Origin: Eubacteriales bacterium
GTDB taxonomy: Bacteria > Bacillota > Clostridia > Lachnospirales > Lachnospiraceae
DNA: 64,000 nt
NCBI GenBank assembly: GCA_030536995.1
Contig: JAUNOY010000006.1
Span: 1 to 64,000, forward strand
Direction of reading: 5' to 3'
Positions 1-18,184 of the stretch are shown here, piece after piece (position 1 is the stretch's first letter; the number at the start of each line of letters is the position of its first letter). A program made the position numbers and the translations under genes. The notes under the pieces were generated by a model, which was not told the origin of the DNA, ran no database searches, and saw nothing but the letters and a program-made list of their open reading frames with translations.

Positions 1-67
1 ATATAGAAACTTATTAACCAAGTAGTCTTACTGACTACACCATTATTATACTAGGAGAGATGTCATT

Positions 68-855: not shown

Positions 856-1076
856 ACAAAAAAAGAAGAGAAAAAGTAGCGGATGCATTTGAACTGGTAC
901 GAAAGGTACAGGAGCTTCTTCAGGAAGTAAAGGAAGAGGAACAGGAAGCACTGGATAATCTTCCGGATAGTCTTCGTGACAGTGAAAAGGGGGAACAGAT
1001 GCAGGAATATGTAGAACTTATGGAAGAAGCGGAAGGGTATCTTAACGATGCAGCTTCTGTGATCGGGCAGATTTAA
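852..1076 (+). CDS. Small acidic coiled-coil hypothetical protein, 74 aa
   Basis: The start overlaps the stop of the RadC-like gene (ATGA). The product begins with a basic stretch and is then very rich in Glu, Gln and Leu with heptad-like spacing, suggesting a helical coiled coil. I recognise no family. The next gene follows after 13 bases with an AAGGAGG site, so it sits inside the same operon. Small accessory proteins of this kind are common in conjugative and phage-like modules. Confidence 0.65.
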   Translation: MNKKRREKVADAFELVRKVQELLQEVKEEEQEALDNLPDSLRDSEKGEQMQEYVELMEEAEGYLNDAASVIGQI

Positions 1077-1089
1077 GGAGGATACAATT

Positions 1090-2022
1090 ATGGCAGCAAA
1101 TGTTGAAAGTATGTTTTATGTAAGGGAGACACCGTGGCACGGACTGGGAACCGGAGTGATGGAAGCTCCGGCTTCAAAAGAGGCGTTGACACTGGCTGGA
1201 CTTGATTGGAAGGTGCTACAGGAGCCGGTATATACACAGTCTGAGGAACTTATAAAAGGCTACAAGGCAAATGTGAGGGATAGTGACAGGAAGGTATTGG
1301 GAGTTGTTACAGACCGGTATAAGGTCATACAGAATGAGGAAGCCTTTAGCTTTACGGATTCGTTATTAGGGGAAGGTGTACGTTACGAAACGGCAGGCAG
1401 TCTGCAAGGAGGAAAAAAGGTATGGCTTCTTGCAAGACTGCCGCAAGAGTATATTATTTCCGGAGAACAGATTAGCCCATATCTGGTATTTTCCAACACG
1501 CATGATGGCTCCGGTGCGATCAAGGTGGCGCTGACACCAATCCGTGTGGTATGCAATAATACGTTGAATTTAGCGCTGAATACGGCGAAACGGTCATGGT
1601 CTATGATACATACAGGTGATATTCAGGGAAAGCTGGAAGAGGCGAAAGATACGTTATTCCTTGCTGAGAAATATATGAGTTCCCTTGGCAAAGAGTTCGA
1701 TGAACTGCGTATGAAGAAAATGACGGATAAACAGGTCATGGACTATATTGAAGTTCTGCTTCCGCTGGATGAGAACTTTACACCTTTGCAAAAGAAGAAT
1801 ATTGCAAGACTCCGTGAGGACATGAAGATGAGATACTTTGATGCACCGGATTTAAAAGGACTGGGAAACAATGCCTACCGTTTTGTAAATGCGGTGTCTG
1901 ATTTTGCTACACACGCAGAACCATTGCGGAAGACAGTGAATTACAAGGAGAACATCTTTGCGAGGACTATGGATGGAAACCCGTTGATTGACAGGGCATA
2001 TCAGATGGTGCTTGCAGCTTAG
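1090..2022 (+). CDS. DUF932 phage/plasmid-like protein
   Basis: The 310-aa protein shows the typical DUF932 (TIGR03299-type) start, with a TPWHGLGTG motif at about residue 15, the segment VVTDRYKVIQNEEAF near residue 80, and the central block TPIRVVCNNTLNLAL. This family occurs on phages, plasmids and integrative elements. Its biochemical role is not established, although it is often near recombination genes, as it is here with YqaJ and a Rad52-like protein. The start is supported by an AAGGAGG site about 8 bases upstream. The length is normal for the family. Confidence 0.88.
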   Translation: MAANVESMFYVRETPWHGLGTGVMEAPASKEALTLAGLDWKVLQEPVYTQSEELIKGYKANVRDSDRKVLGVVTDRYKVIQNEEAFSFTDSLLGEGVRYETAGSLQGGKKVWLLARLPQEYIISGEQISPYLVFSNTHDGSGAIKVALTPIRVVCNNTLNLALNTAKRSWSMIHTGDIQGKLEEAKDTLFLAEKYMSSLGKEFDELRMKKMTDKQVMDYIEVLLPLDENFTPLQKKNIARLREDMKMRYFDAPDLKGLGNNAYRFVNAVSDFATHAEPLRKTVNYKENIFARTMDGNPLIDRAYQMVLAA

Positions 2023-2038
2023 ATGGAGGATGAGCGGG

Positions 2039-2170
2039 ATGAAAAGGTTTGGGATAATAAATCTGATATTGATTCTGCTTACAGTGATGGTGCTTATCCT
2101 GATATTCAGGGAACAGGCTGTAAACTATTGGAGCAGCATATTTGAAATGACAGGAGGATGCGTGTTATGA
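2039..2170 (+). CDS. Single-pass membrane microprotein, 43 aa
   Basis: The longer frame begins inside DUF932, but the start at 2039 has a GGAGG site (2025-2029) at nine bases and gives a 43-aa protein. It has a short basic N-terminus, then about 18 uninterrupted hydrophobic residues (roughly residues 5-22) and a polar tail. The stop TGA (2168-2170) overlaps the preferred YqaJ start in an ATGA, which argues that it is translated. It is probably an inner-membrane peptide with the C-terminus outside. No family is recognised. Confidence 0.6.
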   Translation: MKRFGIINLILILLTVMVLILIFREQAVNYWSSIFEMTGGCVL

Positions 2171-3105
2171 AAAGAAGAATGGTACCAACAAAAGATATGA
2201 CAAGAGAAGAATGGTTACGGTATCGGAGATGTGGAATCGGAGGTTCCGATGCATCCGTAATCATGGGAGAAAACCCGTGGCGTTCTGTTCTGCAGCTTTG
2301 GGAAGAAAAGACCGGGGACGGTGCAGTTACGGATAATGGGAACGAATATACATATTGGGGAAATGTGATGGAACCGATCATCCGAAAGGAGTTTATGAAC
2401 CGCACTGGATTAAAGGTTCGTCAGAAACATGCCATCATCTTTCATTCGGTGTTTCCGTTCCTGTTTGCAGATGTAGACGGTATCGTTACGGACGGGAATG
2501 GTGAGAAATGTATTTTTGAAGCAAAGACAGCATCCCAGTATAAGGAAAAGGACTGGGAGACAGGAGTTCCGAAGGAATACTATTTACAGGTACAGCATTA
2601 TCTGGAAGTCTGCGGTATGGATAAAGCTTACGTTGCTGTCCTGATTGGCGGGAATACCTTTAAAATCTATACGGTGCTGCGGGATCAGGAAGTAGTCGCA
2701 GAGCTTCTTTGTAAAGAAAAGGTATTCTGGGAAGAGCATGTACTGACAGGTATTCCTCCAATGGCAGATGACTCCAAGGCAACTGCGGAATATCTGGACA
2801 GCCGATATAGCGATACTGTCGCAGACAGTATCCAGTTGCCGGAGAACATGAAGGAAATCTTACAGGCTTATGATGCAGTAGATATTCAGTTGAAAAGGCT
2901 GGAGAAGGAGAAGACCGGATTATCCAATCAGATCAAGGCGGCTATGGAAGACCATGAACGGGGTGAACTGGATGGAATGACCGTTCAGTGGAAAAAGATC
3001 GAAAGGGAATCTCTGGACAGCAAAAGACTGAAAAAGGAAAAGCCGGAATTGTTTCAGGAATACCGCAGTGTCAGTTCCTATCGCAGACTGACGGTTGCTG
3101 CATAG
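2167..3105 (+). CDS. YqaJ-family phage-type exonuclease
   Basis: The product is a 312-aa YqaJ-like viral recombinase (lambda-exonuclease / PD-(D/E)XK fold). Visible motifs are GGSDASVIMG at 25-34, Glu in NVMEP (about 69), Asp in the ADVDG stretch (about 102-104), the EAK catalytic element (118-120) and QVQHYL (141-146). Such nucleases resect duplex ends to give 3' single strands for a partner annealing protein, and the next gene encodes one. The start at 2167 is preferred over 2158 because it gives nine bases to AGGAGG (2152-2157) and an ATGA overlap with the preceding microprotein. The C-terminal third looks helical and charged. Confidence 0.92.
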   Translation: MKRRMVPTKDMTREEWLRYRRCGIGGSDASVIMGENPWRSVLQLWEEKTGDGAVTDNGNEYTYWGNVMEPIIRKEFMNRTGLKVRQKHAIIFHSVFPFLFADVDGIVTDGNGEKCIFEAKTASQYKEKDWETGVPKEYYLQVQHYLEVCGMDKAYVAVLIGGNTFKIYTVLRDQEVVAELLCKEKVFWEEHVLTGIPPMADDSKATAEYLDSRYSDTVADSIQLPENMKEILQAYDAVDIQLKRLEKEKTGLSNQIKAAMEDHERGELDGMTVQWKKIERESLDSKRLKKEKPELFQEYRSVSSYRRLTVAA

Positions 3106-3115
3106 GGGGATCCTT

Positions 3116-3883
3116 ATGAGTGAAAAGAAGATACGTGCTTTGAAAGCAGATGAGATTGAGTGCAGGGTATCCAATATCAGTGACAAGGGTGTGACCCTGC
3201 TGTTATATAAAAATGCAAGGGTCGATCAGGCAATCCTCGATGAGACTTTCGGGGTATATGGCTGGCAGAGGAGCCACAGGCTGGTGGGAGATGATCTTTA
3301 CTGTACCGTGAGTATATGGGATGAGGAGAAACACATCTGGATAGCAAAGGAAGACGTTGGTACAGAGGGAGATTACGAAAAGGTAAAGGGTCTCGCTTCG
3401 GATGCATTTAAAAGAGCCTGTGTAAATATTGGGATTGGGAGGGAGCTTTATTCGGCTCCCTTTATCTTTATCCCGGCATCTGTGGTGCAGATCGGAGAAA
3501 AGAATGGAAAGCGGTTTGTAAGAGACAGGTTTACAGTACAGTCCATTACTGTATCAGAGAAGAAGGTGATCACATCCCTTACGGTAGCTAACCAGAATGG
3601 AACAGAAGTTTTTTCCTATAAGGAAAGGAAACAGAAGCCTCCATCAAAGACAGAAGAACCCCAGAAACCAAAAACAAAAAATGCTGGGGAAAAAGATAGG
3701 CAGAGTGCATTGCCAGAGTTTACGTTACGGGAACTGGATATTCTCTATGATGAATTGTACCGGACGGGAGTAACCGAAGAAGCTTTATTGAAACGATATG
3801 GACTTGATTCTATGAAAGATATGAATCGCGATATTTATATGAGAGCCTTGTCAGGGCTTAGAAAAACAAGAACAGCGGCATAA
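3116..3883 (+). CDS. Rad52/Rad22-like single-strand annealing protein
   Basis: The 255-aa protein resembles Rad52-type phage annealing proteins. It has an N-terminal core with the YGWQRSH segment (48-54), then GTEGDYEKVKGLASDAFKRA (82-101) and GIGRELY (106-112), followed by a Lys/Pro-rich linker and a helical C-terminal tail. Such proteins coat single-stranded DNA and anneal complementary strands. Together with the upstream YqaJ nuclease this forms a phage-like exonuclease/annealase pair. The start at 3116 is chosen over the longer frame because GGGGGA lies just upstream. Assignment to the Rad52 superfamily rather than to Erf or RecT is by motif recall. Confidence 0.8.
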   Translation: MSEKKIRALKADEIECRVSNISDKGVTLLLYKNARVDQAILDETFGVYGWQRSHRLVGDDLYCTVSIWDEEKHIWIAKEDVGTEGDYEKVKGLASDAFKRACVNIGIGRELYSAPFIFIPASVVQIGEKNGKRFVRDRFTVQSITVSEKKVITSLTVANQNGTEVFSYKERKQKPPSKTEEPQKPKTKNAGEKDRQSALPEFTLRELDILYDELYRTGVTEEALLKRYGLDSMKDMNRDIYMRALSGLRKTRTAA

Positions 3884-3887
3884 AAAA

Positions 3888-3903
3888 GGCTGTCAGCAGC
3901 CTA
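3888..3903 (+). other. Small hairpin between genes
   Basis: AGGCTG and CAGCCT can pair around a four-base loop directly after the Rad52-like gene. There is no T run, so it may be a transcript-stabilising or weak attenuating hairpin rather than a terminator. Confidence 0.35.
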
Positions 3904-3922
3904 AGAGAAAAGGAGAATGATT

Positions 3923-4843
3923 ATGGAGTATAACAAATTTGTGGAAGAATTAATGAAAAAGATAAAAGAGACAACAGACATAGAAAATCTGGATGTGAAT
4001 TTGCAATCGGATGGAAAAACGCTGGAGGATGACCGTATCTGTGTTACACTGTACGATGATAGAGAAACGGTACACCTGATGAAGATCCGTTCTATGGAAG
4101 CTTATCGTGCATACCAGTCCGGGGAAAAAATGGAAGCGATCGTTCGGGACATAAAAGATGATATTTTTATATACAGAGAAGATATCATACAAAATCTTCG
4201 TAAGCTGCGTGTTTATGAGAACGTAGAGAACAGACTCTTTATCCAGGCGGTCAGCTATGACAGGGAAGGACTGGAACAACAGGTATACGAAGTGGTGGGA
4301 GACATTGCACTTGTGCTGTGTTTTGAAGTATGGGAAAACAGGGACAATATCGTGAAGGTAAAAATCCCGTTCTGGATACTGGAAAAGTGGGGAAAGGAAA
4401 AAGAAGAGGTATGGCAAAGAGCTATGGAGAATACTGCCCGCAGAGCAGAACCGAGGCGTTTTCGTTACGAAAACCTGATACGCGACCCGGAATATGATGG
4501 GGACCGCTTTATGGAGGAGCCACTGGAAGACAGTGTGTATGAGACAGGGCTGGGTATGTGTATCAGTACAGCAAAAAAAGTAAATGGTGCAACGGTCGTA
4601 TTTTATCCGGGAGTAGCCAGACGGCTCAGTGACCTTATGGGAGGGCATGACTTTTACATCGTGTTTACCAGTATACATGAGGTGATGGTACACAGAGCAG
4701 ATATCGTGCCGCTGGAAACTCTATGTTGTATTCAGAAGGATATGTGCGAAAATGTGACTGCAAAAGAAGAACAGTTGAGCAGAAGGATTTATCGCTATTG
4801 CAGAGATAAAGACTGTATCATTCAGGCAGAAGAATGCGTTTAA
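3923..4843 (+). CDS. DUF5688 family protein
   Basis: The 306-aa protein has the look of the DUF5688 family, which is abundant on accessory DNA of Lachnospiraceae. It has an N-terminal helical part, a middle with RLFIQAVSYDRE, and a C-terminal half containing FYPGVARRLSDLMG and FYIVFTSIHEV. No catalytic motif or membrane segment is evident, so function is unknown. The start at 3923 is preferred over 3917 because AGGAG (3911-3915) is then seven bases away. A hairpin follows the gene and probably ends the block. Confidence 0.75.
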   Translation: MEYNKFVEELMKKIKETTDIENLDVNLQSDGKTLEDDRICVTLYDDRETVHLMKIRSMEAYRAYQSGEKMEAIVRDIKDDIFIYREDIIQNLRKLRVYENVENRLFIQAVSYDREGLEQQVYEVVGDIALVLCFEVWENRDNIVKVKIPFWILEKWGKEKEEVWQRAMENTARRAEPRRFRYENLIRDPEYDGDRFMEEPLEDSVYETGLGMCISTAKKVNGATVVFYPGVARRLSDLMGGHDFYIVFTSIHEVMVHRADIVPLETLCCIQKDMCENVTAKEEQLSRRIYRYCRDKDCIIQAEECV

Positions 4844-4856
4844 ATATTTGAAGATC

Positions 4857-4885
4857 GAACAGGACAGTTTCAGGCTGTCCTGTTC
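4857..4885 (+). terminator. Strong hairpin after DUF5688 gene
   Basis: GAACAGGACAG and CTGTCCTGTTC form a perfect 11-bp stem around a seven-base loop. No U tract follows, so it could be a factor-dependent or bidirectional end, or a processing hairpin. Confidence 0.5.
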
Positions 4886-4995
4886 CATAACAGAAAAAGA
4901 TATCATTTTTTGCGGACAGAAAGAAGATAGAGATAGATAAACTTGCGGCAACATGATAGAATAGAAATATCAGTGTGAGATGGATGGTGATAGAA

Positions 4996-6342
4996 ATGAT
5001 CGAACTGAAACGGGAGATTTATCAGGAATTACTAAAGTGGAAACAGGAAGATTCCGGGAAAGTCCTTGAGGTAGAAGGGGCAAGACAGGTTGGAAAAACA
5101 TATATCCTGAATAAATTTGCAAAAGAGAACTACAGTCAGTTTATATATGTAAATATGTTACAGACATCCGGCAAAGAACTGCTGCAATGTTTTGCGAAAG
5201 CAACAGAATGGGAGCCGGGGCAGCCAAGACTGAAAAAACCTTTGCATGATGCATTGGTTTTATTTGAGCCGGATTTTCAGGATACGAAAGAAACGGTAGT
5301 GGTCATTGATGAGATTCAGGAATCCGCGGAAGTATACTCCAAGATCCGGCAGTTTGCCAGAGATTTTTCCTGTCATTTTATTGTCACAGGAAGCTACCTT
5401 GGAAAAACGCTGGATAAAGAATATTTTCTCCCGGCTGGTGATATGGACGTCCTTATCATGGAAACTTTATCATATGAAGAATTTTTAGATTCTGTAGGGA
5501 AGAGAGGAGTATATGAGACGGTAAGCCTATATGGGGATTCTGCGCACAGCGATTATGAGGAACTGAAAGAGTATTACCGTATTTACACAGAGATCGGCGG
5601 TTATCCGGCGGTTGTCAAAAAGTATTTGGAAACCAGAGATTTGGGAAAATGCAGAGAGGTGCTGCGGAATATCATCCGTATTTTTATCGACGAGTCAGAG
5701 CGTTATTTCAATAATGTGATAGAAATACAATTATTTGACCAGATTTTTTCTGCTATTGCACAGAGCATGATAAAAGAAAAGAAAGGCTCAGGTGATCTGG
5801 TAGCGGAATTATCAAGTATTCTCTTTAAAGAAGAAAGCAGCCGATTGACAAAAGCCAGTATCAATCAGGCGATTGCATGGCTGTATCGTTCTCATATCGT
5901 TGGTTACTGTAACCGGGTGAATGAGTGTAATATGCTGGATGTATCGTATAATACGAGATTTTATTTCCGGGATGTAGGTCTGGCAAGATATTTTCTGAAG
6001 ATGACAGGCGCCGATCCGGGAACCGTACAGGGGATTGTGAGTGAAAATTTTGTTTACCTTTATCTGGAACGACAGATCAGACAATCCATGATCGCAGGAA
6101 ATGCCCCGGCTTTTGGCACATATAAAGGGGGAGAAATTTATTTCTATGTAAGAAGTCTGGATTCTTATAAAGACTATGCGATTGAAGTGAAGGCAGGTAA
6201 TAATCAGGGAAAAACAGCCCGTCAGATGTTATTGGATAAAAAAGTAGACAGAGTTTATTACTTAAAGGGCGATACCTATGGTGGGGTTCGTGAGGGAGCA
6301 GCTACCGTTCCAATTTACCTGACAGGCAGGATTGCATTTTAA
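4996..6342 (+). CDS. AAA ATPase with DUF4143 domain (copy 1)
   Basis: The 448-aa protein carries an N-terminal AAA_14-type P-loop domain, with Walker A GARQVGKT at 28-35 and Walker B VVVIDEIQES at about 101-110 with a following sensor FIVTGSYLG. The C-terminal DUF4143 part contains the EVKAG element (about residue 404) that resembles a degenerate PD-(D/E)XK nuclease core. Members are common in gut anaerobes and archaea, and their biological role is poorly known. It is closely related along its whole length to the protein at 7204-8562. ATG 4996 is the start that aligns with that paralogue; its ribosome site is weak. Confidence 0.88.
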   Translation: MIELKREIYQELLKWKQEDSGKVLEVEGARQVGKTYILNKFAKENYSQFIYVNMLQTSGKELLQCFAKATEWEPGQPRLKKPLHDALVLFEPDFQDTKETVVVIDEIQESAEVYSKIRQFARDFSCHFIVTGSYLGKTLDKEYFLPAGDMDVLIMETLSYEEFLDSVGKRGVYETVSLYGDSAHSDYEELKEYYRIYTEIGGYPAVVKKYLETRDLGKCREVLRNIIRIFIDESERYFNNVIEIQLFDQIFSAIAQSMIKEKKGSGDLVAELSSILFKEESSRLTKASINQAIAWLYRSHIVGYCNRVNECNMLDVSYNTRFYFRDVGLARYFLKMTGADPGTVQGIVSENFVYLYLERQIRQSMIAGNAPAFGTYKGGEIYFYVRSLDSYKDYAIEVKAGNNQGKTARQMLLDKKVDRVYYLKGDTYGGVREGAATVPIYLTGRIAF

Positions 6343-6367
6343 AAAATTAATGAGCAAATAAGCAGGA

Positions 6368-6401
6368 GAGCAGAGGTGTGTACATCCCCCTGCTCTTTTT
6401 C
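6368..6401 (+). terminator. Rho-independent terminator after ATPase copy 1
   Basis: GAGCAG (6368-6373) pairs with CTGCTC (6390-6395), the stem being extended inward by GG and CC pairs, and a run of five T follows. It lies just upstream of the resolvase, so the resolvase likely has its own transcription. Confidence 0.7.
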
Positions 6402-6419
6402 TATGCAGGAGTGAGAGTT

Positions 6420-7037
6420 ATGGAATATGGATATGCGAGAGTCAGCAGCACAGAGCAGAATTTGGACAGACAGATTATGGAGCTGAAAAAGTATGTGGCT
6501 GAGGGTAATATTGTGGTGGATAAAGCAAGCGGAAAGAATACGGAGAGAGAAGGATATCAGGCATTGAAAGGTCTTTTCGGATTGAGAGAAGGAGATGTTT
6601 TGTACGTTACTTCTTTGGACAGATTGTCAAGGGATAAGGAAGATATCAAACGGGAGCTGCAATGGTTTCAGGATAAAAAAGTTAGACTTAAAATCCTTGA
6701 TCTGCCCACATCTTTGATTGAAGTACCGGAAGGTCAGGCGTGGATTCTGGAGATGATACAAAATGTGCTGATTGAGGTCTTGTCCAGTATTGCAGAACAG
6801 GAAAGACTTACCATTCGCAAAAGACAAAGAGAAGGGATTGAGGCAGCAAAGGCAAAAGGAAGACATCTGGGAAGACCACGATTGAAGTTACCAGAAGAGT
6901 TTCCGGCAATCTACGACAGGTGGAAAGATGGTCAGCTTACAGCAAAAAAAGCCATGTATCTTTTGGGTATGAAACCGTCACATTTTTACCGTAAGGTGAG
7001 AGAATATGAAGCAGGAAATGAGCCAAAAGGTGTTTGA
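6420..7037 (+). CDS. Small serine recombinase (resolvase/invertase family)
   Basis: The 205-aa protein has the resolvase catalytic domain with YARVSSTEQN at 5-14 (nucleophile Ser9), the conserved SLDRLSRD segment, and a long E helix, followed by GRHLGRP and a short C-terminal helix-turn-helix. The length is typical of Tn3-type resolvases and DNA invertases. ATG 6420 has AGGAG at 6407-6411, eight bases away, and begins exactly at the family start, so the longer frame from 6378 is discarded. It sits between two paralogous ATPase genes, so it could resolve, invert or mobilise this segment. No res or hix site was identified. Confidence 0.93.
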   Translation: MEYGYARVSSTEQNLDRQIMELKKYVAEGNIVVDKASGKNTEREGYQALKGLFGLREGDVLYVTSLDRLSRDKEDIKRELQWFQDKKVRLKILDLPTSLIEVPEGQAWILEMIQNVLIEVLSSIAEQERLTIRKRQREGIEAAKAKGRHLGRPRLKLPEEFPAIYDRWKDGQLTAKKAMYLLGMKPSHFYRKVREYEAGNEPKGV

Positions 7038-7203
7038 ATTTTGGGAGATATTCCAGAATTAGAATCGAACTTTTTGGTACATTATATGCTTGTAGAGAGG
7101 AACTGTCTCAAAAGGTTTACCTTATGGAAAAGAAAGTGGTGTTTTTTTCTCTTTCATGTTATATTAGAAGAAGAACTGTAATATAGTTGGGCGGTGAAGC
7201 AGA

Positions 7204-8562
7204 ATGAGTAAATATTTAAAAAGAGAGGCTTATGACAGGCTGCTGAAATGGAAGCAGCGTGAGGGACATTCAACACTGGAAGTCTCAGGGGCTCGTCAGG
7301 TAGGAAAAACGTACATTGTCAATAAATTTGCAGACGAACAGTATAAGCAGAAAATATACATTAATCTCCTTGACTTTTCAGGGGAACTCTTTATTGAGCG
7401 ATACAAAGCATTAAGAGATGAGATTATACATGGTTTACTGTGTGAAAATCCAATGTATGAGTTACTGAAAAGAACGCAGCCTGATTTTGTGGATTCTCCA
7501 GATGTAGTTGTGATTATAGATGAGATTCAGGAATCAGCGGATATATACAATCGTGTCAGAGAGTTTACCAGATATCTAAAATGTGATTTTATTATCACAG
7601 GAAGTTATCTGGGAAGGATTTTGAACAAAGAGTTCAAATATTCCGCAGGTGATTTGGATTCGCTGGAAATAAATACGTTGAATTTTGAAGAGTTCCTTAT
7701 GGCAGTAGGGGAACATTCACGATATGAGAAGTTAGATCTGTTTGGAGCTGGATTAGAGGAAGATTACCAAAGATTATCGGAACTATATGAAACGTATCTG
7801 AAAATCGGAGGCTATCCGGCGGTTGTACTCCGATATTTGGAAACACAATCCATAGAGAGTGCAAATACAGAGCTGTTGAAAATCATCAGGCTTTTTACAA
7901 ATGAGAGCAAGCGCTATTTTGAGGACATTCTGGATAACGAGGTATATGATAACATATTTTCCGGGGTTGCCAGAGTTCTTGTAAAGGAAAAGAAAGGTTT
8001 TGAAAAAGACAGTTTCAGCGAAGAATTGCAGAGTATAGTGGTAAAAGATTATTCCAGCAACATTGGGAAAGCATCTATCAATAGGGCCATAGACTGGCTG
8101 TACAGTTCTGGAATCATAGGATTTGCAGGAAAAATTCAGGATTGTAATATTTTAGATTTTAAGGCAAAATCCAGATGCTATTTTATGGATGTAGGCTTGA
8201 CGAATTACTTTCTTACTCATATTGGCTGTTCCGAAAGTGACGTTGCAGGCATATCAAATGAAAACTTTGTCTATCTTGATTTGAAGAGACGCATAATGCC
8301 ACCGGGGGAAATTGCTTTGGAAACACCCGCATTTGCAACTATCGGAAATGGTGAAATTGACTTTTATCTGAAATCTTTAAAAACGCAGAAAACGTATGCC
8401 ATTGAGGTGAAGGCAGGGAAGAAAAACAGCAGAACAGTTCAGATGATTTTGGACAAGAAAAAAGCAGATTACATTGTGTATGCCAAGGGAAATACTCATG
8501 GCGGTATCACAGAAAATGTATACACGATACCAATATATGGGGTTGGAAAATTTGAATTTTAA
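7204..8562 (+). CDS. AAA ATPase with DUF4143 domain (copy 2)
   Basis: The 452-aa protein is a clear paralogue of the gene at 4996. It shares LLKWKQ near the N-terminus, Walker A GARQVGKT at 29-36, Walker B VVVIIDEIQES at about 101-111, FIITGSYLG, and the C-terminal AIEVKAG element. Sequence differences are spread over the whole length, so this is an old duplication or independent acquisition rather than a recent copy. GGGCGGTGAAG upstream of ATG is a poor ribosome site. A hairpin terminator follows at 8591. Function is unknown beyond ATP binding and a putative nuclease-like C-terminus. Confidence 0.88.
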   Translation: MSKYLKREAYDRLLKWKQREGHSTLEVSGARQVGKTYIVNKFADEQYKQKIYINLLDFSGELFIERYKALRDEIIHGLLCENPMYELLKRTQPDFVDSPDVVVIIDEIQESADIYNRVREFTRYLKCDFIITGSYLGRILNKEFKYSAGDLDSLEINTLNFEEFLMAVGEHSRYEKLDLFGAGLEEDYQRLSELYETYLKIGGYPAVVLRYLETQSIESANTELLKIIRLFTNESKRYFEDILDNEVYDNIFSGVARVLVKEKKGFEKDSFSEELQSIVVKDYSSNIGKASINRAIDWLYSSGIIGFAGKIQDCNILDFKAKSRCYFMDVGLTNYFLTHIGCSESDVAGISNENFVYLDLKRRIMPPGEIALETPAFATIGNGEIDFYLKSLKTQKTYAIEVKAGKKNSRTVQMILDKKKADYIVYAKGNTHGGITENVYTIPIYGVGKFEF

Positions 8563-8590
8563 GCGATGAATATTGCAATGAAAATGAGAG

Positions 8591-8614
8591 GAGCACCCGT
8601 GAAGGGTGCTCTTT
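8591..8614 (+). terminator. Terminator-like hairpin after ATPase copy 2
   Basis: GAGCACCC (8591-8598) pairs perfectly with GGGTGCTC (8604-8611), followed by a short TTT. It separates the ATPase gene from the AT-rich orphan gene downstream. Confidence 0.6.
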
Positions 8615-8756
8615 GGGTATGATTAAATAATTCTGAGATGATGGAAAATCACCTTAAATTAAAAAAAATTTTTGAAATTAAAGATTTAGTGCGATTTTAT
8701 ATATATTTTTTATGATTTTTTAAAAATAAGGTGATTGGAAAGGTGGACTAGATAAT

Positions 8757-10835
8757 ATGCTACTGTTCGATAGAAAACTTTGTGATGAAATTAATGGAAT
8801 CAAAGAAAAATTAAAGGGAAAAATTGATGTTGAAAAATTATTGAGGGAAGCTGAAGCTGAGTTTGTTTGGGATGAAGAAGCGTTTAATGAGAATAGGGTG
8901 CAGGATGTTTATGGTAAAGTTCTTAAAAGTGCTCAACAGTTTGTGGAACTCATAGAGAATAATGGGAAGAAACTTCCCTCAGATATAATAATGGATTCGC
9001 TTTTATATATGGCTTTTATGAAAGTAATGGAAGATTTGGATTCCGAAATAATAAATCCAAAGACAAGTAAAAAACGTAAAAAGCAATTAATGACATTCGC
9101 AAAAGCCAATACTTGGTTAGAATGCTCCTGTAAGTGTTATAAGAAATATTTAAAAAAGCGGTGGTTAAATGCACATGAAGTATACGAAAAAAATTTGCTT
9201 CTTGTTTTCAAATATTCTGTTTTGCTAGAGGATATTCTTACAGGAGATATGAGACTTCCAAAAGAAATTAAACAACAGATTGATGCGGCAGATAAACATT
9301 TTTGGAACAATGATTGTAAGAGGGAACTTAAAGGTCTTAGTTTAGAAGACAAAAAAAAGAATGAAAACTTTTTTAAAGAAGTTGTGAAGAATAAGAAGAT
9401 ATGGGAATGCTTTTCTAAGGATACAATATACGAGTTGTATAGTCGTAAAGTAGAGGAACTGCTTCGAAAGAATATGAATCGTGATGAAGTGTGGTGGTAT
9501 ATTGGTTTTAATCTTAAATATGGAACGGATACATATTTTAAAAATGCATATCTTAAAAATGCATACGAAAGGTGTCTAAAAAAAGTAGGTGAAGAATGTA
9601 TTTGGGATGGTAGAAAAGCTTATAATGGCACAATTCCAAGTGGAAAGTATTTTTACGATAGCTCTATAAAAGGAAAAATTGAAGAAGTTTGTTATGATGA
9701 GGAAAAAACAGTTCAGATTATTCGAGCCAAGATAAAACAAATATTCAAGGAAAATGCAGATATAGAAGATCAATTGGATTTTACCAAGTTGGTATTTGCA
9801 GGTATATTATGTGAAATAAGGTATGAAACGGAAAGTCATTGTGGCAGAGTTTCAGGTAGTGATATGGAAATGGGGATATTATATGATGACGAAAAGTTTT
9901 GGGTGTATGACAAACAAAGTAAAAGGTTAGTTACTGAAATAACAATAGAAAAGTACGCTAAAAAATTACAAATGAAAGAAGAGGAGGATTCTGAACAAGA
10001 AGCAACGATAAAAGCCCTGAAAGAAAAATTTGAGTATGGAGAGATAAAAAATGATTTGAACCCGATATTCCAACTGAGACAAGATTTTGATCCGGAAATA
10101 AAAGCGGTAATTAATGGAAAAGGCAAAAACAGAAACTTTTCGAATCGATTAGAAAAAATCTTTAGTTGCAAAGAGGGAATGAGTCTTTATGAATCCTATA
10201 TTGTTGAAAAACAGTCGGGCTTTTATTTGGCTTGGATGATTTATAATAGAACGGTGAAACTACGATTTATTAAAAATCCTGGAATACAAGAAGGCATAGT
10301 AAAATTGACAATGGAATTGAGTGAAATTAAAAATGCAGATATAAGACTTGTTATAGCAGAACATGTTTTGGATATGCTGGATGAAATTCTGTGCATGGAA
10401 AATATGGATATTATACAGGGAATAAACGCTATTTGTGAGGGAATAAAAGAATGTGCTGAACATTTCAATGAAAAATATAATCTTCTTTATGAAATAATGC
10501 TCCTTATATTTACAGATGAAAAATGTCTTTCGAACGGTAAATATAGATATCAGCTTCTGGAATGGAATATATTTAAGCTAAGTGTTACCTTTATGAATAT
10601 GGAGCGCAAATTTAAAAAAGTGTATTATGAGTGTAAGAAATCAATGGATAAGGAATTTAGTGGTTTTAACAATGAACTGTACAATACAGAGCTAAATTGT
10701 ATTGTAAAATCAGATGCTAATAGTCCATTTCATAAATGGTTTTGTTGTATTTATGAAAAGCATATTCCGAAAAAAAAGGAGGAAACAAAAGGGAAAAGCG
10801 TAAAACCTGACAAGTCATTGGAAACAATAGGATAG
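8757..10835 (+). CDS. Large orphan protein, 692 aa, function unknown
   Basis: No family is recognised. The protein is Lys/Glu-rich, apparently almost all alpha-helical, with scattered Cys and Trp and no signal peptide, P-loop or membrane segments. A charged linker lies near 400-425, and the end is a low-complexity Lys-rich tail. The gene and its flanks are much more AT-rich than the core genes downstream, suggesting recent acquisition. AAGGTGG lies about 12 bases before the ATG. It is monocistronic: a terminator precedes it and a 17-bp perfect inverted repeat follows. Isolated large helical proteins on mobile elements are often defence or toxin genes, but nothing here proves that. Confidence 0.75.
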   Translation: MLLFDRKLCDEINGIKEKLKGKIDVEKLLREAEAEFVWDEEAFNENRVQDVYGKVLKSAQQFVELIENNGKKLPSDIIMDSLLYMAFMKVMEDLDSEIINPKTSKKRKKQLMTFAKANTWLECSCKCYKKYLKKRWLNAHEVYEKNLLLVFKYSVLLEDILTGDMRLPKEIKQQIDAADKHFWNNDCKRELKGLSLEDKKKNENFFKEVVKNKKIWECFSKDTIYELYSRKVEELLRKNMNRDEVWWYIGFNLKYGTDTYFKNAYLKNAYERCLKKVGEECIWDGRKAYNGTIPSGKYFYDSSIKGKIEEVCYDEEKTVQIIRAKIKQIFKENADIEDQLDFTKLVFAGILCEIRYETESHCGRVSGSDMEMGILYDDEKFWVYDKQSKRLVTEITIEKYAKKLQMKEEEDSEQEATIKALKEKFEYGEIKNDLNPIFQLRQDFDPEIKAVINGKGKNRNFSNRLEKIFSCKEGMSLYESYIVEKQSGFYLAWMIYNRTVKLRFIKNPGIQEGIVKLTMELSEIKNADIRLVIAEHVLDMLDEILCMENMDIIQGINAICEGIKECAEHFNEKYNLLYEIMLLIFTDEKCLSNGKYRYQLLEWNIFKLSVTFMNMERKFKKVYYECKKSMDKEFSGFNNELYNTELNCIVKSDANSPFHKWFCCIYEKHIPKKKEETKGKSVKPDKSLETIG

Positions 10836-10960
10836 AATAAAAACAGAATATCAAATGCTGAAAGAATTAAGATTGTAACATTGGAAAGCAAATAAACTTA
10901 CATACAGCAGAAATGATTATTGGGAAATGTGCAAAAGTTTTGAACAAAATCTTTTCGGAA

Positions 10961-11010
10961 AATAGAAATAGCCAAGCATGGATGTATATCCTAGCTTGGC
11001 TATTTCTATT
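10961..11010 (+). terminator. Perfect 17-bp inverted repeat downstream of orphan gene
   Basis: The arms at 10961-10977 and 10994-11010 are exact reverse complements, with a 16-base loop. The right arm ends in TTTCTATT, so it could act as a bidirectional terminator. The length and perfection are unusual for a plain terminator. Confidence 0.6.
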
Positions 11011-11070
11011 AGTTCATGAAAACGAAGGATCGTTGGAAGCCAAACTGCAAATGCGGTGGTGTGGGAGGCG

Positions 11071-11092
11071 GGGAAATTTAATTAAATTTCCC
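11071..11092. repeat. Perfect 22-bp palindrome
   Basis: The sequence consists of GGGAAATTTAA followed by its exact reverse complement. It lies in the 433-base gene-free stretch 10836-11268. It could be a second hairpin or a binding site for a dimeric DNA-binding protein. Apart from this, the 17-bp inverted repeat and a weak imperfect hairpin at about 11111-11134, I see nothing in the stretch. Confidence 0.5.
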
Positions 11093-11268
11093 TTCTACTC
11101 GATTCAACATGGGTTAGATTCTCGATCTAAATCCTCTAAAAGATAGTGAGTACCAATGGTATTAGGTGTCAATAGGCCAAATTCAATCAAGACGCAGAAG
11201 TTGGTCGCTACGAAGTTGTGCCCAAATGTATACTATACTTTAGCCATAAAAAAAGGAGGAAATAACCA

Positions 11269-13125
11269 ATGAATAATCATCAATATACAAACACAGGCGG
11301 ATATATTTATTCCAATGTGGCTGGTCACATTCCGACACAGGAGCAGCTTACAAGTTTCCAGAATGATTTGTGCATCACAAACCAGAATTTGGCAACTTTG
11401 TCAGAGCATATGCAGGCAACAGGAGCAGCAATTTACAGGTCAAATGAGTCCGTGACTGAAACTGTCGAAAAACTTCGGAAGGATATGAAAAAAGACAGGA
11501 AGAAAAAAACAACACAGAAGGTTGCAATGATGTCCAACAGTATTTATATCATTCAGTTTTTTGATGATGGAACGTCAGAGGCTATGCCATTGTTTCTGAG
11601 CTTGGGTGGAAAATATTACATCAAACGTCTGATTTTTCCAGCAGAGAGAAAAGAAAAAAATAGGGTCGAAATTTGGTTCCCAGATCAGGATGTTTTTGTT
11701 TATGTTCCTGAAAATAGCAGCGGAAAAATCTTATTTGATGCGTTTGTAGAAGCAGGTGTTGCTTTCAATACGCAACTTACAGTAAGTCGGTGTACTCAGG
11801 CTTTGGCTGAATTTTTTATCCCTCGAATTCGCGAATGTGAAAATACCATTCTCTATTCTGGGCTTGCAGGATGGGAAGGAAGATTTTTTATGACAAAAGA
11901 ATGCTTTCGTCGATTTCGATATTATAGACATTTTCCCGATTCTTTACCAGTACTGGAAAAAAGTTTGCCTGGTGTAAATTCCAAAGCTGGGCAGGAGAGG
12001 GTAAAGGAATACCTCAATTTGATTAATGATGTGAAGGGATATCGTCTGCGCTTCTGGCTTTTTCTTTATCCCTATGTGGGGTTGCTTAAAACAATTTTAG
12101 ACCAGAAGGGATATCGAACAGATTTTATTCTGACATTGCTGACTGACGATTTGGGGGTAAAAAAGTGCATTTTAAATTACCTTCAGTTGTTCAATAGGTA
12201 TCAACTGTGTCCGACAACCATTGAGGGTTCAGAAAAAAGGGTTATGGAAACTGTAGCCTGCGAAAAAGATGAGGTTCTTGTAGTTGATCATTCCACTCTA
12301 GTGACCGAAACACCTTACAAGCTACATACAATGGAAAACAATTTGGAAAAAATTATGAAAATTTCGACCGGTGAAAAAATTCTTCCGCCTCCATATAATC
12401 GGGATGCGACATTTGTACTTGCCGTGATTAGCGATGTAGGTATAAATTTCAAAGGCTGCACGCTGAATTTTATTGTGGAAATGGAAGATTTAAAAAAAAT
12501 GACATTTAGTAGAGAGGAGGGTGATGATTATATAGGTGAAAACTTTACAGGATTTGTAAATTGGGCTATGGAAAAATTTAATCGCATGGAAGCACAGCTT
12601 TGTAATTGTCCAAAAGAATTTCGGGATAGGAAGGCCACGATTAAAGCAGTTTCAGGTATCGTGGAAGCGAGATTTGCGGATATAGGCATTAATGTTTGGG
12701 AAGTGCTGAAGATTGATGTGAATACACTTTTCGAAAAAGGGCTTTTTGAGTGTGATAATATTGCCGAAAATGATTTGCTGCTTCGAAAGTTTCGGGAGCT
12801 GGTTCGCGAAAATATTCAAAAAACAGTTGTGCTTCCTAAGAAGCATGGAGTTATGGAAAATGGAGCTGTGTATTTTGATGAGGAATGGATATGGATTCCG
12901 TCATTTTTATGTACCACATGGTTGACAACTGCTGGCCTCCGAAAACAGAGGAAACGACTGTTGTTTACTTTGAAGTCTGAGGGGATTTTATACGCGGATG
13001 AGGGCTATACGCATCGTACGCAGATTCAGTTTAATACATTGGAGACAATTATGCTGAAGAGGGACTTTTTTACAAAGACTGGTGAAGTGGAAGTGATTTC
13101 CTTGGGGAGGGAACGCGATGATTAA
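11269..13125 (+). CDS. 618-aa protein of HerA-linked module, possibly degenerate DUF927-like
   Basis: There is a strong AAAGGAGG site upstream. The protein starts with a polar, Gln/Thr/Asn-rich region (1-60), a Lys-rich helix (about 68-85), then a mixed domain. Segments such as YSGLAGWEGRFF (about 197-208) and a later VLVVDHSTLV recall the layout of DUF927-type phage/plasmid helicase-like proteins, but I see no intact Walker A, so any ATPase fold would be degenerate. This resemblance is weak and inferred. The stop lies eight bases inside the next gene, so it is coupled to the HerA-like ATPase. Base composition is AT-rich. It is the least understood member of the module. Confidence 0.6.
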   Translation: MNNHQYTNTGGYIYSNVAGHIPTQEQLTSFQNDLCITNQNLATLSEHMQATGAAIYRSNESVTETVEKLRKDMKKDRKKKTTQKVAMMSNSIYIIQFFDDGTSEAMPLFLSLGGKYYIKRLIFPAERKEKNRVEIWFPDQDVFVYVPENSSGKILFDAFVEAGVAFNTQLTVSRCTQALAEFFIPRIRECENTILYSGLAGWEGRFFMTKECFRRFRYYRHFPDSLPVLEKSLPGVNSKAGQERVKEYLNLINDVKGYRLRFWLFLYPYVGLLKTILDQKGYRTDFILTLLTDDLGVKKCILNYLQLFNRYQLCPTTIEGSEKRVMETVACEKDEVLVVDHSTLVTETPYKLHTMENNLEKIMKISTGEKILPPPYNRDATFVLAVISDVGINFKGCTLNFIVEMEDLKKMTFSREEGDDYIGENFTGFVNWAMEKFNRMEAQLCNCPKEFRDRKATIKAVSGIVEARFADIGINVWEVLKIDVNTLFEKGLFECDNIAENDLLLRKFRELVRENIQKTVVLPKKHGVMENGAVYFDEEWIWIPSFLCTTWLTTAGLRKQRKRLLFTLKSEGILYADEGYTHRTQIQFNTLETIMLKRDFFTKTGEVEVISLGRERDD

Positions 13126-14170
13126 AGATATAAGCGGAGTAAAAATCAAACTTGCAAATGTTCCAAATGCACACTGCCTTCTGTTGGGGCAGTCTGGAAG
13201 TGGAAAAACAGTTGGTTTGAATGTTTTAATTAAAGAAGCACTGAAAGATGGGAATCAGGTTTTTGTTGTTGACTATTCCGACAGTTTTACGGCAGAAGAG
13301 ATTGAGAAGGCAAAAGTCCTGAAAGCAGAAGATGTTACTTTTAAGGATTTGAGCAAAGAAACTTTTGTACTGCCCTTCCTTTCAGGAAATAAAGCGAAAG
13401 ATGTTGAATCTATTTCGATGGCACTTTCAGAAAGTTTTGAAATTTTTGGGAGGAGACAGAAAGAGGTTCTCCATGAGTTGGTTTCTAACATTTGGGAAGA
13501 CGGATCTGTTCGTTTTGGCGGGATTATGGAAGATTTAGACTTGATGTATTTGATCGAAAAAGACAATGATTCAGACAAAGCACAGAGAATTGAAAAATTG
13601 TCTGAAAAGCTTGAATGTTTAGCTGAAAGTGACTTCATCGAACTTGTTAACATAAGTGGAAGTGGAGAAATTTCAAATTCAGTTCAAATTTTGGGATTTT
13701 CAAGTTTTCCATTCGAAACAAGAAAAAAGGTTGCAAACTTTTGTTTGGAGCTTTATTGGAAAAAAATACGGTGTAGGCAAGATGATATGAAAACAACTCG
13801 CATTGTGCTCGATGAGGTGCAGAATGTTGGATTTAGAAAGACGCAGGCCTTCACGAATATGATTCGAGAGGGACGTAAATTTGGGCTGGGTGTTTTCATG
13901 GCAACACAGTTTGAAAATGACACAGAAAAAATGGAGCTTCTTATGCAAGCCGCGAATGTACTGCTTTTTAAACCAACGATTAGAAATGCTAGAAAAACAG
14001 CGAAACTTATCGAGGAGGAAAACTGCAAGACGTGGTTGAAAATATTGGAGCAGTTAGAGATTGGGCATTTTGTTTTGATGGGAACTTACAATGTAAATCA
14101 AAATACTAAAATGCATCAAACGCCAATTCTGGCGCAGATGGAAATTAACAGTAGGGAGGAAATAAAATGA
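13118..14170 (+). CDS. HerA/FtsK-like P-loop ATPase
   Basis: The 350-aa protein has Walker A GQSGSGKT at 24-31, and Walker B TRIVLDEVQNVG with acidic pair 232-233. It then has the REGRKFGLGVFMATQ segment typical of HerA/VirD4/FtsK-type motor ATPases (DUF87, AAA-10 group). No membrane helices are present, so it is not a classical conjugative coupling protein with an anchor. It overlaps the 618-aa gene by eight bases and the next small gene by four (ATGA), implying a fixed-ratio complex. HerA-like ATPases pair with nucleases in repair and in several phage defence systems; a partner nuclease is not obvious here. Confidence 0.85.
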   Translation: MIKDISGVKIKLANVPNAHCLLLGQSGSGKTVGLNVLIKEALKDGNQVFVVDYSDSFTAEEIEKAKVLKAEDVTFKDLSKETFVLPFLSGNKAKDVESISMALSESFEIFGRRQKEVLHELVSNIWEDGSVRFGGIMEDLDLMYLIEKDNDSDKAQRIEKLSEKLECLAESDFIELVNISGSGEISNSVQILGFSSFPFETRKKVANFCLELYWKKIRCRQDDMKTTRIVLDEVQNVGFRKTQAFTNMIREGRKFGLGVFMATQFENDTEKMELLMQAANVLLFKPTIRNARKTAKLIEEENCKTWLKILEQLEIGHFVLMGTYNVNQNTKMHQTPILAQMEINSREEIK

Positions 14171-14409
14171 ATAAAAATATTTTTTGGGAATCAGAATCAA
14201 AGTATGTGAATACATATGAAGCGAATAAAATACATACGGAGGAACTTATGCCAGTGCCAGATTACAAAGAAATTGAAATCGAAAAATCAGGGATGAAAAT
14301 CTGTTTTCTCTTCCCGTCAAAGACAGAAGAGAACACGGAAATCCGTAAAGACATCAAGGCGATTCTTGCAGGTGCTTTACGTGAACAGGTAGAGTACAGA
14401 ACTCATTAA
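14167..14409 (+). CDS. Small conserved-looking protein, 80 aa
   Basis: The start overlaps the HerA-like stop (ATGA) and has GGGAGGAAAT just upstream. The N-terminal half is polar, the middle GMKICFLFPSK forms a short beta-like segment, and the C-terminus RKDIKAILAGALREQ is a helix. That layout recalls small proteins that sit just before large serine recombinases (TnpW-like), but the match is only in pattern. Its position between the ATPase and the recombinase suggests a regulator or cofactor of one of them. Confidence 0.6.
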   Translation: MNKNIFWESESKYVNTYEANKIHTEELMPVPDYKEIEIEKSGMKICFLFPSKTEENTEIRKDIKAILAGALREQVEYRTH

Positions 14410-14416
14410 CGATGAA

Positions 14417-14451
14417 GAGTGGGGCGGGGCGTATAACTCTTTGCCCCACTC
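14417..14451 (+). terminator. Hairpin between small gene and recombinase
   Basis: GAGTGGGGC (14417-14425) and GCCCCACTC (14443-14451) pair perfectly around a 17-base loop. No U run follows, so it may attenuate rather than fully stop transcription into the recombinase gene. Confidence 0.45.
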
Positions 14452-14492
14452 AATGCAAAGGAATTTTTAAATGGGAAGGACGGCTCTTATAT

Positions 14493-16178
14493 ATGAAGAA
14501 AAAAGTAAGGATGCTTCTCCGTGTAAGTTCCAATCAGCAGTTGGAAGCAGACGGAGATTTAAGTATTCAGAGACAGCTTGTAAGGGAATACATAGAAAAA
14601 AATCCAGACTGGGAGCAGGATACAAAAGAGTATTTTGAGGGTAGTAACAGTGGTTATCACAATTCTGTAGCAGATCGAGATGTGCTGCAGGAGGCGCTGC
14701 AGGATGCAGAAGCAGGAGAATATCAGATTTTGGTGGCATACAAGGATGACAGAATTGGAAGACGTATGTGGGAAATTGGGGCATATGTTATGGCACTGAA
14801 AAATTGCGGTGTAGACATTTACACGGTAAAAGATGGATGTATTTCACCGGAATCAGATGATATTATGGGGCAGATGGTGCTGGCGATGCGTTACGGAAAT
14901 GCTCAGAAAAGCAGTTCGGATACAGGAATGCGTGTGAAGGACTCAGCTCAGAAAATGGTACAGAAAGGAAAATATGTAGGTGGAACACCACCATATGGAT
15001 ATAAATTGGAATTGTCAGGTGAGCTTAGTAAGCATGGACGTGCGCTTCATCATTTGGTAATCGAACCGGAAAGGGCAGAAGTGGTAAAATATATCTATGA
15101 ACTGTCCTTGAATAAAGAATACGGTTCTGCAAAGATTGCCAAAATATTAAATGTCCATGAGGTATATAAAAAGATGGCTCCCAAAGATTATTGGAAGTCG
15201 GGAACAATTACCAGTATATTGACAAATCCTATTTACACAGGAAGGACCGCATACAAACGTCGGGAAAAAGTTAATGGCAAATTTAAACGTCTGGGTAATG
15301 AAGAATGGATTATTGCATCAGAAGCGAATCAGAAACTGATTGTTATAGACGATGATATTTGGAATAAGGTGCAGGAAAGAAGGGAGCGCAGAGGCAGCAA
15401 ATATAAAAAAAGTCTTAAAAACCAAGATGTAACAGTGATTCAGCGTAATAGTGGAGAACTGGCATTGATTGATATTATATACTGCGGCTATTGTGGCAGT
15501 AAGATGACTAATGGAAGTAAATATAATTATTGGACGATTAAGGACACAGGGGAACGGCGTACCAGCAAAATACCCATTTACAAATGTCAGAATGCCTGGC
15601 AGGGGATTCCGCACGACAAAAGCAAGCAATACCGTGCAGATAAAATTGAACCAGTTGTTTTTGAGGCTATTGCCAGCTACATAGGTGTTTTGCAGGAAAA
15701 TGAAGATGTATTTCAGCAAATTGAAGATAATAAAAATAGGGAAGTACTCTTAAAGAAGGGGGAATTGAAGAAAGAAAAACAGGAATTAGAAAAAATACAA
15801 AATAAGATCAGCGTAATGGAAGGTCATATACCAGATGCAATGACTGGAGAGTATCCTTTAAATTTGAAAGAATTGATGGACATTATTCGGAAGCACAAAG
15901 ATCAGATGCAACAGCAGCAGAAAGTGGTTTCACAAAAAGAATCAGAGTTAAAAAGCATAAATGTTTCCTCCAGAGACTGGGAGCAGCTTAGGAAAGAGAT
16001 TCCTAGTTGGCAGGAGGTGTTCCTCAATTCGGATACCGCAACCAAGCGCGTACTCGTGAATAAGCTTATAAAACGCATAGAAATTAAGAAAGATGAGATA
16101 AAGGTAGAGTTTAAAATAAACTTGAATGATTTCTTGCCTCAAACCCGAATTACTGATGGTTTCGACGTACCGGAATAA
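14493..16178 (+). CDS. Large serine recombinase / integrase
   Basis: The 561-aa protein has an N-terminal resolvase domain with MLLRVSSNQQ at 7-16 and DRIGRR near 90, the recombinase domain with GTPPYGYKLE and ILTNPIYTGR, a zinc ribbon with a CGYCGSK knuckle at about 332-338, and a C-terminal coiled coil. This architecture is that of TnpX/TndX and phage-type large serine integrases, which integrate and excise elements at short att sites. The start at 14493 begins at the conserved family N-terminus. The last codons run into a foreign gene fragment at about 16165, so the 3' end of the integrase gene marks the element border (attR). The stop codon lies in or right next to the target gene. Confidence 0.94.
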   Translation: MKKKVRMLLRVSSNQQLEADGDLSIQRQLVREYIEKNPDWEQDTKEYFEGSNSGYHNSVADRDVLQEALQDAEAGEYQILVAYKDDRIGRRMWEIGAYVMALKNCGVDIYTVKDGCISPESDDIMGQMVLAMRYGNAQKSSSDTGMRVKDSAQKMVQKGKYVGGTPPYGYKLELSGELSKHGRALHHLVIEPERAEVVKYIYELSLNKEYGSAKIAKILNVHEVYKKMAPKDYWKSGTITSILTNPIYTGRTAYKRREKVNGKFKRLGNEEWIIASEANQKLIVIDDDIWNKVQERRERRGSKYKKSLKNQDVTVIQRNSGELALIDIIYCGYCGSKMTNGSKYNYWTIKDTGERRTSKIPIYKCQNAWQGIPHDKSKQYRADKIEPVVFEAIASYIGVLQENEDVFQQIEDNKNREVLLKKGELKKEKQELEKIQNKISVMEGHIPDAMTGEYPLNLKELMDIIRKHKDQMQQQQKVVSQKESELKSINVSSRDWEQLRKEIPSWQEVFLNSDTATKRVLVNKLIKRIEIKKDEIKVEFKINLNDFLPQTRITDGFDVPE

Positions 16179-16185
16179 AGGCTAC
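16140..16185 (+). mobile_element. Putative attR junction of the integrated element
   Basis: Integrase coding sequence merges into the SpoIID-like gene near TTTCGACGTACCGG (16161-16174). Target homology resumes at about YRNKGYDF. The exact crossover cannot be fixed without the other end or an empty site. No second copy of the core was noticed in the window, so attL is taken to lie upstream of position 1. Confidence 0.55.
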
Positions 16186-16758
16186 GATTTTACCATAACT
16201 TCTTCAACAGCCTATGACCATAAATGGATTTACGGGCGGAATATTTTTGATCCTATAGATAGAATTGTGGATGAGCTTTTTGAAAATTATCTTTCCAGAC
16301 CAAATGTGAAGCAGCCTATTTTGACACAATACTGCGACGGAGAAATGGTGAGGTGTGCTGACAGAGGCTGGATGACTCAGTGGGGAAGTAAAAGTCTGGG
16401 AGATCAGGGCTATTCTCCCATAGAAATACTCAGATCTTTTTATGGAAACGATATGTATATTAATGTGGCTGAAGAAATTTCCGGTATTCCGTCTTCGTGG
16501 CCCGGCTATGACCTGACACTTGGGGCGTCCGGAAATAAGGTGAGACAGATTCAGGAACAGCTTAATGCCATTGCAGGGGCGTACCCGGCGATTCCCAGAC
16601 TGGCAGTGGACGGGATATACGGACGGGAAACAGAGAAAGCTGTGAGCTCCTTTCAGAATGTTTTTGGACTTTCGGTTACCGGAATCACTGATTATCCGAC
16701 ATGGTATAAAATTCAGGAAGTCTATGTGGGAGTGAGTCGGATTGCTGAACTCAGATAA
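16150..16758 (+). pseudogene. 3' part of a SpoIID-like / peptidoglycan-binding gene, interrupted by the element
   Basis: The reading frame from about 16150 starts abruptly in the middle of a protein. It shows a SpoIID/LytB-like core (QYCDGEMVRC, then MTQWGSKSLGDQGYSPIEIL, then FYGNDMYI), followed by a PG_binding_1 domain (GASGNKVRQIQEQLN, LAVDGIYGRETEKAVSSFQ). In intact clostridial relatives a large N-terminal region precedes this. No signal peptide, ribosome site or N-terminus exists here, and the join coincides with the end of the serine integrase gene. The ATG at 16126 lies within the integrase gene and is probably not used. The intact gene would be restored by precise excision. Confidence 0.8.
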
Positions 16759-16843: not shown

Positions 16844-16853
16844 AAATAAAAAA

Positions 16854-18183: not shown

Positions 18184-18184
18184 C

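Follow-up and report, generated by a model that had tools for sequence, protein, structure and literature searches.

The stretch of DNA analyzed here, the window, is the first 64 kb (64,000 nucleotides) of contig C13 from a Lachnospiraceae draft genome in 40 contigs that is 92.5% complete. The start of the window holds the right part of an inserted element, the end of which abuts the 3' half of a gene; the left part and the 5' half of the same gene are on contig C15. The features of the two contigs are (window positions unless marked C15):

1..16166: right part of the element, cut off at window position 1 by the start of C13 and continued elsewhere
400..855, plus strand: RadC-family protein, below curated cut-offs
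1090..2022, plus strand: phage/plasmid-like protein TIGR03299 (227 bits, above cut-off)
2158..3105, plus strand: YqaJ / RecE-like exonuclease, by profile searches
3095..3883, plus strand: Erf-like ssDNA-annealing protein, by PHROGs
6378..7037, plus strand: small serine recombinase of 219 aa
13118..14170, plus strand: HerA/VirD4-like ATPase (PF01935 DUF87, E 1.1e-9)
14167..14409, plus strand: conserved small ORF of 80 aa, candidate recombination directionality factor, directly upstream of the integrase
14493..16178, plus strand: large serine integrase of 561 aa (PF00239, PF07508, PF13408; phrog_95 integrase, E 1.5e-80)
16167..16176, plus strand: attR core GTACCGGAAT, 10 bp, common to attL
16167..16758, plus strand: sleC 3' half, matching intact relatives and SleC, with an in-frame join to the 5' half on C15
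C15:1-17643: left part of the element, outside the window
C15:17644-17653, minus strand: attL core GTACCGGAAT, 10 bp, common to attR
C15:17635-18423, minus strand: ORF of the sleC 5' half, outside the window, found by a search of the genome with an intact relative

The integrase ORF extends from an ATG at 14493 to a TAA stop at 16176-16178, and the Resolvase, Recombinase and zinc-ribbon (Zn_ribbon_recom) domains of a large serine integrase are all present; a site-specific recombinase is, by Pfam and PHROGs, encoded at the sleC junction of the element. The adjoining ORF (16126-16758, 210 aa) has a start that is overlapped by the integrase gene, is element-derived up to position 16166 and includes a PG_binding_1 domain (E 1.2e-14, above cut-off), while its N-terminus is missing. 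Besides the window's own pieces and splits, the same stretch forms the C-terminal half of an intact ORF of 422-490 aa in 20 of 24 genus-level places with the locus. These intact ORFs align to the fragment only from about residue 12, so the window ORF starts with residues that come from the element. The first-pass annotation, which had placed a serine integrase at the border of an interrupted gene without start and N-terminus, is confirmed on both counts. A tRNA-Leu gene (16853-16939) is noted downstream of the 210-aa ORF, and a tRNA-SeC gene is on the minus strand at 48917-49014.

The 5' half, which the first-pass annotation had proposed to seek and could not see, is present in the same genome on C15, where the intact relative used as query matches the minus strand at 17638-18309 with 70% identity. 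At the left junction the sequence is ...ACGGAGTG-GTACCGGAAT-CAACAG, and at the right junction ...TTTCGAC-GTACCGGAAT-AAAGG. When rejoined in silico at the core, the halves form one frame of 418 aa with a single terminal stop and zero residues lost, and the sequence over the join (NRVYTEW-YRNKGYDFTIT) is as in intact relatives. The lack of a 5' half and the loss of frame or residues at the rejoined site, which had been named as outcomes contrary to the first reading, are both absent, and the claim that a gene was split by an element encoding a serine integrase is borne out by two halves and a common core. The insertion point lies between the TEW and YRN codons of sleC, with the core around GGTAC. 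The stop codon of the integrase is completed by the host half of attR (window 16164-16178), such that the integrated protein ends in VPE; in the excised circle the frame would, as computed, extend to 593 residues, and integration may thus trim the integrase C-terminus. The ends of C13 and C15 have no common sequence, and a direct junction of these contig ends is putative.

Homology over the full length relates the split gene to SleC, the spore cortex-lytic enzyme of clostridia, which Csp proteases activate and which hydrolyses the cortex in germination. An intact relative (L006, 428 aa) matches PDB 9h68_A, 'Spore cortex-lytic enzyme pre-pro-form', with an E value of 3.2e-136 over residues 19-428. 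In the accounts drawn on here, sleC (CD0551) of Clostridioides difficile bears the same product name as 9h68_A (PMC3789822) and belongs to the sigma-K regulon, being indispensable for germination (PMC3789822, PMC3738446), and SleC of C. perfringens and C. difficile is described as the solitary cortex-lytic enzyme (PMC5083711). The SpoIID-like label of the first-pass annotation stands in part: PG_binding_1 is present, but the fragment has no match to Pfam SpoIID and an intact relative reaches 19.6 bits, below the cut-off of 23 for PF08486. Two PF08486 matches of the same genome (on C34 and C17) were considered as the 5' half and rejected, that on C17 being a separate SpoIID-type gene of 277 aa. 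Glu203 of L006, in the stretch SSEIYATWP, is conserved in each of the 78 intact copies and in each of the 35 split copies spanning the position; on the strength of SpoIID work, we take it to be the putative catalytic residue. The TEWYR motif is invariant in the 78 intact copies.

The distribution and upstream regions of sleC support its assignment, from sequence, as a mother-cell sporulation gene. Among 298 family genomes (at least 90% complete, mostly one per genus), sleC is found in 199 and SpoIVA in 201; both occur in 198, sleC only in 1, SpoIVA only in 3 and neither in 96 (Fisher p 1.4e-73, with kinship ignored). The motility control FliG is independent of sleC in the same 298 genomes (101/98/50/49, p 1). 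Upstream regions of 114 copies (78 intact and 36 split) were compared with dinucleotide shuffling over the stretch 60-160 nt before codon 25. The intact controls include 60 family genes that come from the top of the match listing and lean to close relatives. The mother-cell type -10 CATANNNT occurs in 85 of the 114 regions compared to 14.4 +- 4.0 after shuffling, and CATANNNTA in 52 compared to 3.4, a pattern that presumably reflects the consensus of the mother-cell sigma factors E and K. The -10 sites cluster about 80-100 nt before codon 25, with an A/AC preference 17-19 nt upstream of the -10. Of the control motifs, TTGACA is not enriched (3 vs 3.4), while TATAAT is somewhat enriched (20 vs 6.7). 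The strict sigma-E consensus with both boxes is moderately enriched (genus 8/18, family 23/60 and split 12/36, with shuffled means of 1.4, 9.6 and 6.2, respectively), and the strong promoter signal upstream of sleC is the -10 alone. SleC homology, co-occurrence with SpoIVA and the mother-cell type -10 agree with the earlier proposal that the gene is likely used in the cell wall or spore.

Interrupted sleC genes are widespread in the family. A search of public contigs with the integrase as sole query yielded 24 loci from genomes and one from IMG/VR, and a sleC piece adjoins the integrase in 25 of 25 loci in the fetched DNA. The integrase faces the 5' half in six of these (L046, L047, L049, L056, L069 and L070), so that the element can lie in either direction, as a palindromic crossover sequence (GGTACC) would permit. 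The integrase itself is found in 6 of 64 genus genomes and in at least 8 of 397 family genomes, the best three candidates per genome being scored. Independently of the integrase, sleC is split in at least 22 of the 199 sleC-bearing family genomes, with both pieces seen and the break at a fixed place; the count is a minimum, as it comes from 33 of the 199 genomes, chosen because their best matches were weak. Site 1 (between TEW and YRN) is used in 7 genomes, including that of the window, site 2 (between WMT and QWG) in 13 and site 3 (in VVIPEY) in 2, while in six further genomes just one piece is seen or the break is not clear-cut (G093, G101, G141, G172, G182 and G251). The site-2 elements with listed ORFs encode serine recombinases of a different family (domains checked for L102, L103 and L105), the complete ones being about 490-520 aa long; in loci with both types, identity to the site-1 integrase is 23-24%. 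At site 3, the element carries a tandem pair of recombinase ORFs. In two loci, L054 (Lacrimispora saccharolytica An817; 7655-9622) and L062 (878-4100), sleC is broken at two sites, each with its own recombinase, and a middle piece of 71-74 residues is left; in L070 the sleC 3' piece also stops at site 2.

Several loci of this survey are unusual in other respects. The contig of L070 (IMGVR_UViG_3300035327_000291) is listed as viral, but the locus is bacterial and carries sleC with an integrase element, and L061 (JAMPFJ010000001.1) is titled Bacteroidales bacterium, yet has a Lachnospiraceae-type sleC element and is probably misnamed. In G326 the last 49 sleC residues are encoded a second time (C1:858842-858988; L120 5345-5491), roughly 6 kb downstream from the split gene. 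In an order-level relative (G039:C25, L113), a sleC-type gene is in overlapping pieces on one contig with no insert and is probably frameshifted.

Wherever both ends could be read, the split genes are restorable, with an in-frame rejoin in 23 of 23 cases. Of these, 15 are at site 1 (including L047 and L070, which are truncated at site 2), 7 at site 2 and 1 at site 3. Nineteen were joined by script with the conserved motif at the junction and four by reading (L060, G147, G326 and G138), of which L060 and G138 have one mismatch each in the common stretch at the join. The common cores are 3-11 bp, many of just 3-5 bp. Element sizes range from 2.6 kb (G270 and G242) over 3.0-4.3 kb (L066, L060, L061, G049, L052 and L055) up to 18 kb (G326), and the minimal elements of 2.6-4 kb have little apart from the recombinase.

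A mother-cell sporulation gene that is split, an in-frame rejoin at a common core and a recombinase at the junction are features of the skin/gin type of element, and the sequence data make it probable that the element is of this type and is excised in the mother cell to rebuild sleC. A large serine integrase would insert the element into the conserved TEW and YRN codons of sleC, at the core around GGTAC. Vegetative cells would not need sleC, a mother-cell gene, and for this reason the insertions are likely tolerated. During sporulation, excision by the integrase, helped by the small protein encoded upstream of it, would rebuild sleC in the mother cell, whereas the forespore would retain the element and hand it on.

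The main alternative, which we regard as unlikely, is that the insertions plainly inactivate the gene at a hotspot of recombination: a good attB would simply happen to lie in the conserved SleC codons, sleC would be lost, germination would proceed via SleB/CwlJ-type enzymes and the halves would be intact because the insertions are young. SleB/CwlJ-type Hydrolase_2 domains are indeed found in 26 of 26 genomes tested (24 with sleC split, and also G459), with two in the window's genome; thus, SleC may not be the sole cortex enzyme and its loss could be tolerated. Near-identical elements in distant hosts likewise point to recent insertion. In L046, L047 and L070 the integrase is nearly the same (dS about 0.02) while the host sleC is saturated (dS >2), which by sequence comparison is recent transfer between species into the same site. 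Some insertions are therefore very recent, and intact halves prove little there. The split copies also depart more from conserved residues, with 177 departures in 4348 compared to 82 in 8966 for the intact copies at 115 positions conserved in intact copies, a set defined on the intact copies themselves; four divergent lineages (L066, G049, G298 and L068) account for 76 of the 177.

Other observations argue against inactivation. Stops occur in the aligned pieces of 7 of 50 split copies and, by position, each of them falls on or past the junction or ahead of the start, such that none is premature within the halves. The ratio of changes at codon positions 1+2 to position 3 is 0.309 in the 50 split copies and 0.288 in the 78 intact copies (p 0.19), but much of this history may be older than the insertions. 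The most direct comparison is between G022 and Blautia glucerasea (L063, apparently G459), in which the element right side and the flank are collinear at 87-89% identity (88.5% over 3.8 kb for the element right side, 87% for the sleC 3' half and downstream flank), while the left element ends diverge beyond about 40 bp. Common descent of the whole insertion is likely on this evidence. For this pair, both sleC halves have a low dN/dS (3' half 0.036, 5' half 0.095); the integrase has 0.142, the small ORF 0.62 and the next host gene 0.069. Three recombinase types, moreover, use sites in one sporulation gene. The low dN/dS in one related split pair and the restorability of all 23 pairs weaken plain inactivation, although precise integration would also give restorable pairs, and excision in the mother cell is the better reading.

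The element could also be ICE/IME-like and excise only in its own transfer cycle, in few cells and without sporulation control, with sleC restored incidentally, but this we find improbable. The content of the window element is mobile-type (RadC, YqaJ, Erf-like and HerA/VirD4-like ATPase), and cargo differs among elements at the same site. The left part additionally encodes a tyrosine integrase (C15:13874-15016, L035; PF00589) that is possibly of a nested element. Relationships to characterized mobile elements were considered for the integrase and rejected: for an SCC element (CcrA/B/C) the best NCBIfam match is CcrB at 101 bits against a cut-off of 900, and the best phage and plasmid matches are 31.5% and 27.1% identical, respectively.

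The control of excision would depend on the 80-aa ORF, a candidate directionality factor by its place and size. A profile of this ORF with seven relatives as seeds has a match upstream of 29 of 31 site-1 integrases, a count that includes the seven seeds and in which two locus pairs are near duplicates; the ORF has no family in Pfam, PHROGs or NCBIfam. No mother-cell promoter signal above chance precedes it, in line with excision outside sporulation control: among 27 upstream regions, the mother-cell type -10 is not enriched (12 vs 9.4 +- 2.5 shuffled), CATANNNTA is not above chance (6 vs 2.9 shuffled) and sigma-E-like sites number 8 compared to 4.2, with a shuffle maximum of 12. The window's own element has no CATANNNT -10 at this position. 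By contrast, the minimal elements of 2.6-4 kb do not look self-transmissible and the target is a mother-cell gene, both of which speak against an ICE/IME-like cycle.

A further, speculative reading to which we give little credence is that sleC of the Lachnospiraceae is a docking gene for unrelated recombinase elements that act as removable DNA introns, with failed excision serving as bet-hedging. SleC production would then hinge on one or more excisions per mother cell, and cells that fail would release spores without SleC, giving a fraction of slow or superdormant spores in gut germination. That the halves are made as separate cooperating polypeptides, without excision, would fit the open frames kept in both halves but is very improbable, as the 3' half has no conserved start, the window ORF starts inside the integrase gene and the split falls between highly conserved residues (TEWYR).

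If excision in the mother cell, the preferred reading, is true, its meaning would extend beyond the window. Known rearrangements of sporulation genes are a handful, mostly in Bacillus and Clostridium; such rearrangement would be common in a dominant gut family and would reach from spore building to germination. It would account for annotated genomes of spore formers that seem to be without a working sleC, and would provide a testable source of spore-to-spore variation in germination. The elements would also offer sets of natural serine integrases whose attachment sites are defined, together with small candidate directionality factors.

Interruption of sporulation genes is described for sigK, spsM, spoVFB, spoVR, gerE and yabG (PMC4191935, PMC5595907, PMC10747680). 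The phenomenon itself is already known for these genes; no report of an interrupted sleC was found in a search of open-access papers. In a survey of large serine recombinases, diverse recombinases converge on one conserved gene, as for sleC, and the main text of that survey has no match for SpoIID, peptidoglycan or Lachnospir (PMC10083194).

Among the known systems, SPbeta in spsM, vfbin in spoVFB and vrin in spoVR are likewise in mother-cell sporulation genes; these are described as prophages or remnants, whereas the sleC elements are mostly not visibly phage, the window element being screened in part (PMC4191935). The yin element in yabG of C. botulinum has the same three Pfam recombinase domains, a late mother-cell gene as target and a candidate directionality factor, and is reported as unique to one strain, while the sleC pattern spans a family (PMC10747680). 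As YabG processes pre-pro-SleC, the targets of yin and of the sleC elements are in one pathway (PMC10747680). The skin element in sigK of C. difficile is similar in its large serine recombinase and small directionality factor (here a candidate) and in the split mother-cell gene that is restorable in frame, and differs in its target gene; skin CD1234 has a mapped sigma-E/SpoIIID promoter, and no such signal was found for the sleC elements (PMC5025042).

The gin element in gerE of Bacillus cereus is likewise non-phage, has one or more serine recombinases and splits a mother-cell gene with 9 bp of common sequence (PMC5595907). GirX, a small accessory protein of 42 aa, is needed for gin excision and may be compared to the small candidate ORF of the sleC elements (PMC5595907). 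Varied cargo and recent transfer between strains are also common to gin and the sleC elements (PMC5595907). By contrast, excision in sporulation is demonstrated for gin (PMC5595907), while for the sleC elements it is predicted from sequence. The sleC elements are further distinguished from gin, as described, by a germination enzyme as target, several unrelated recombinases, three sites in one gene and sizes down to 2.6 kb. The logic proposed for the sleC elements would thus be that of skin in sigK and gin in gerE, here for a germination gene.
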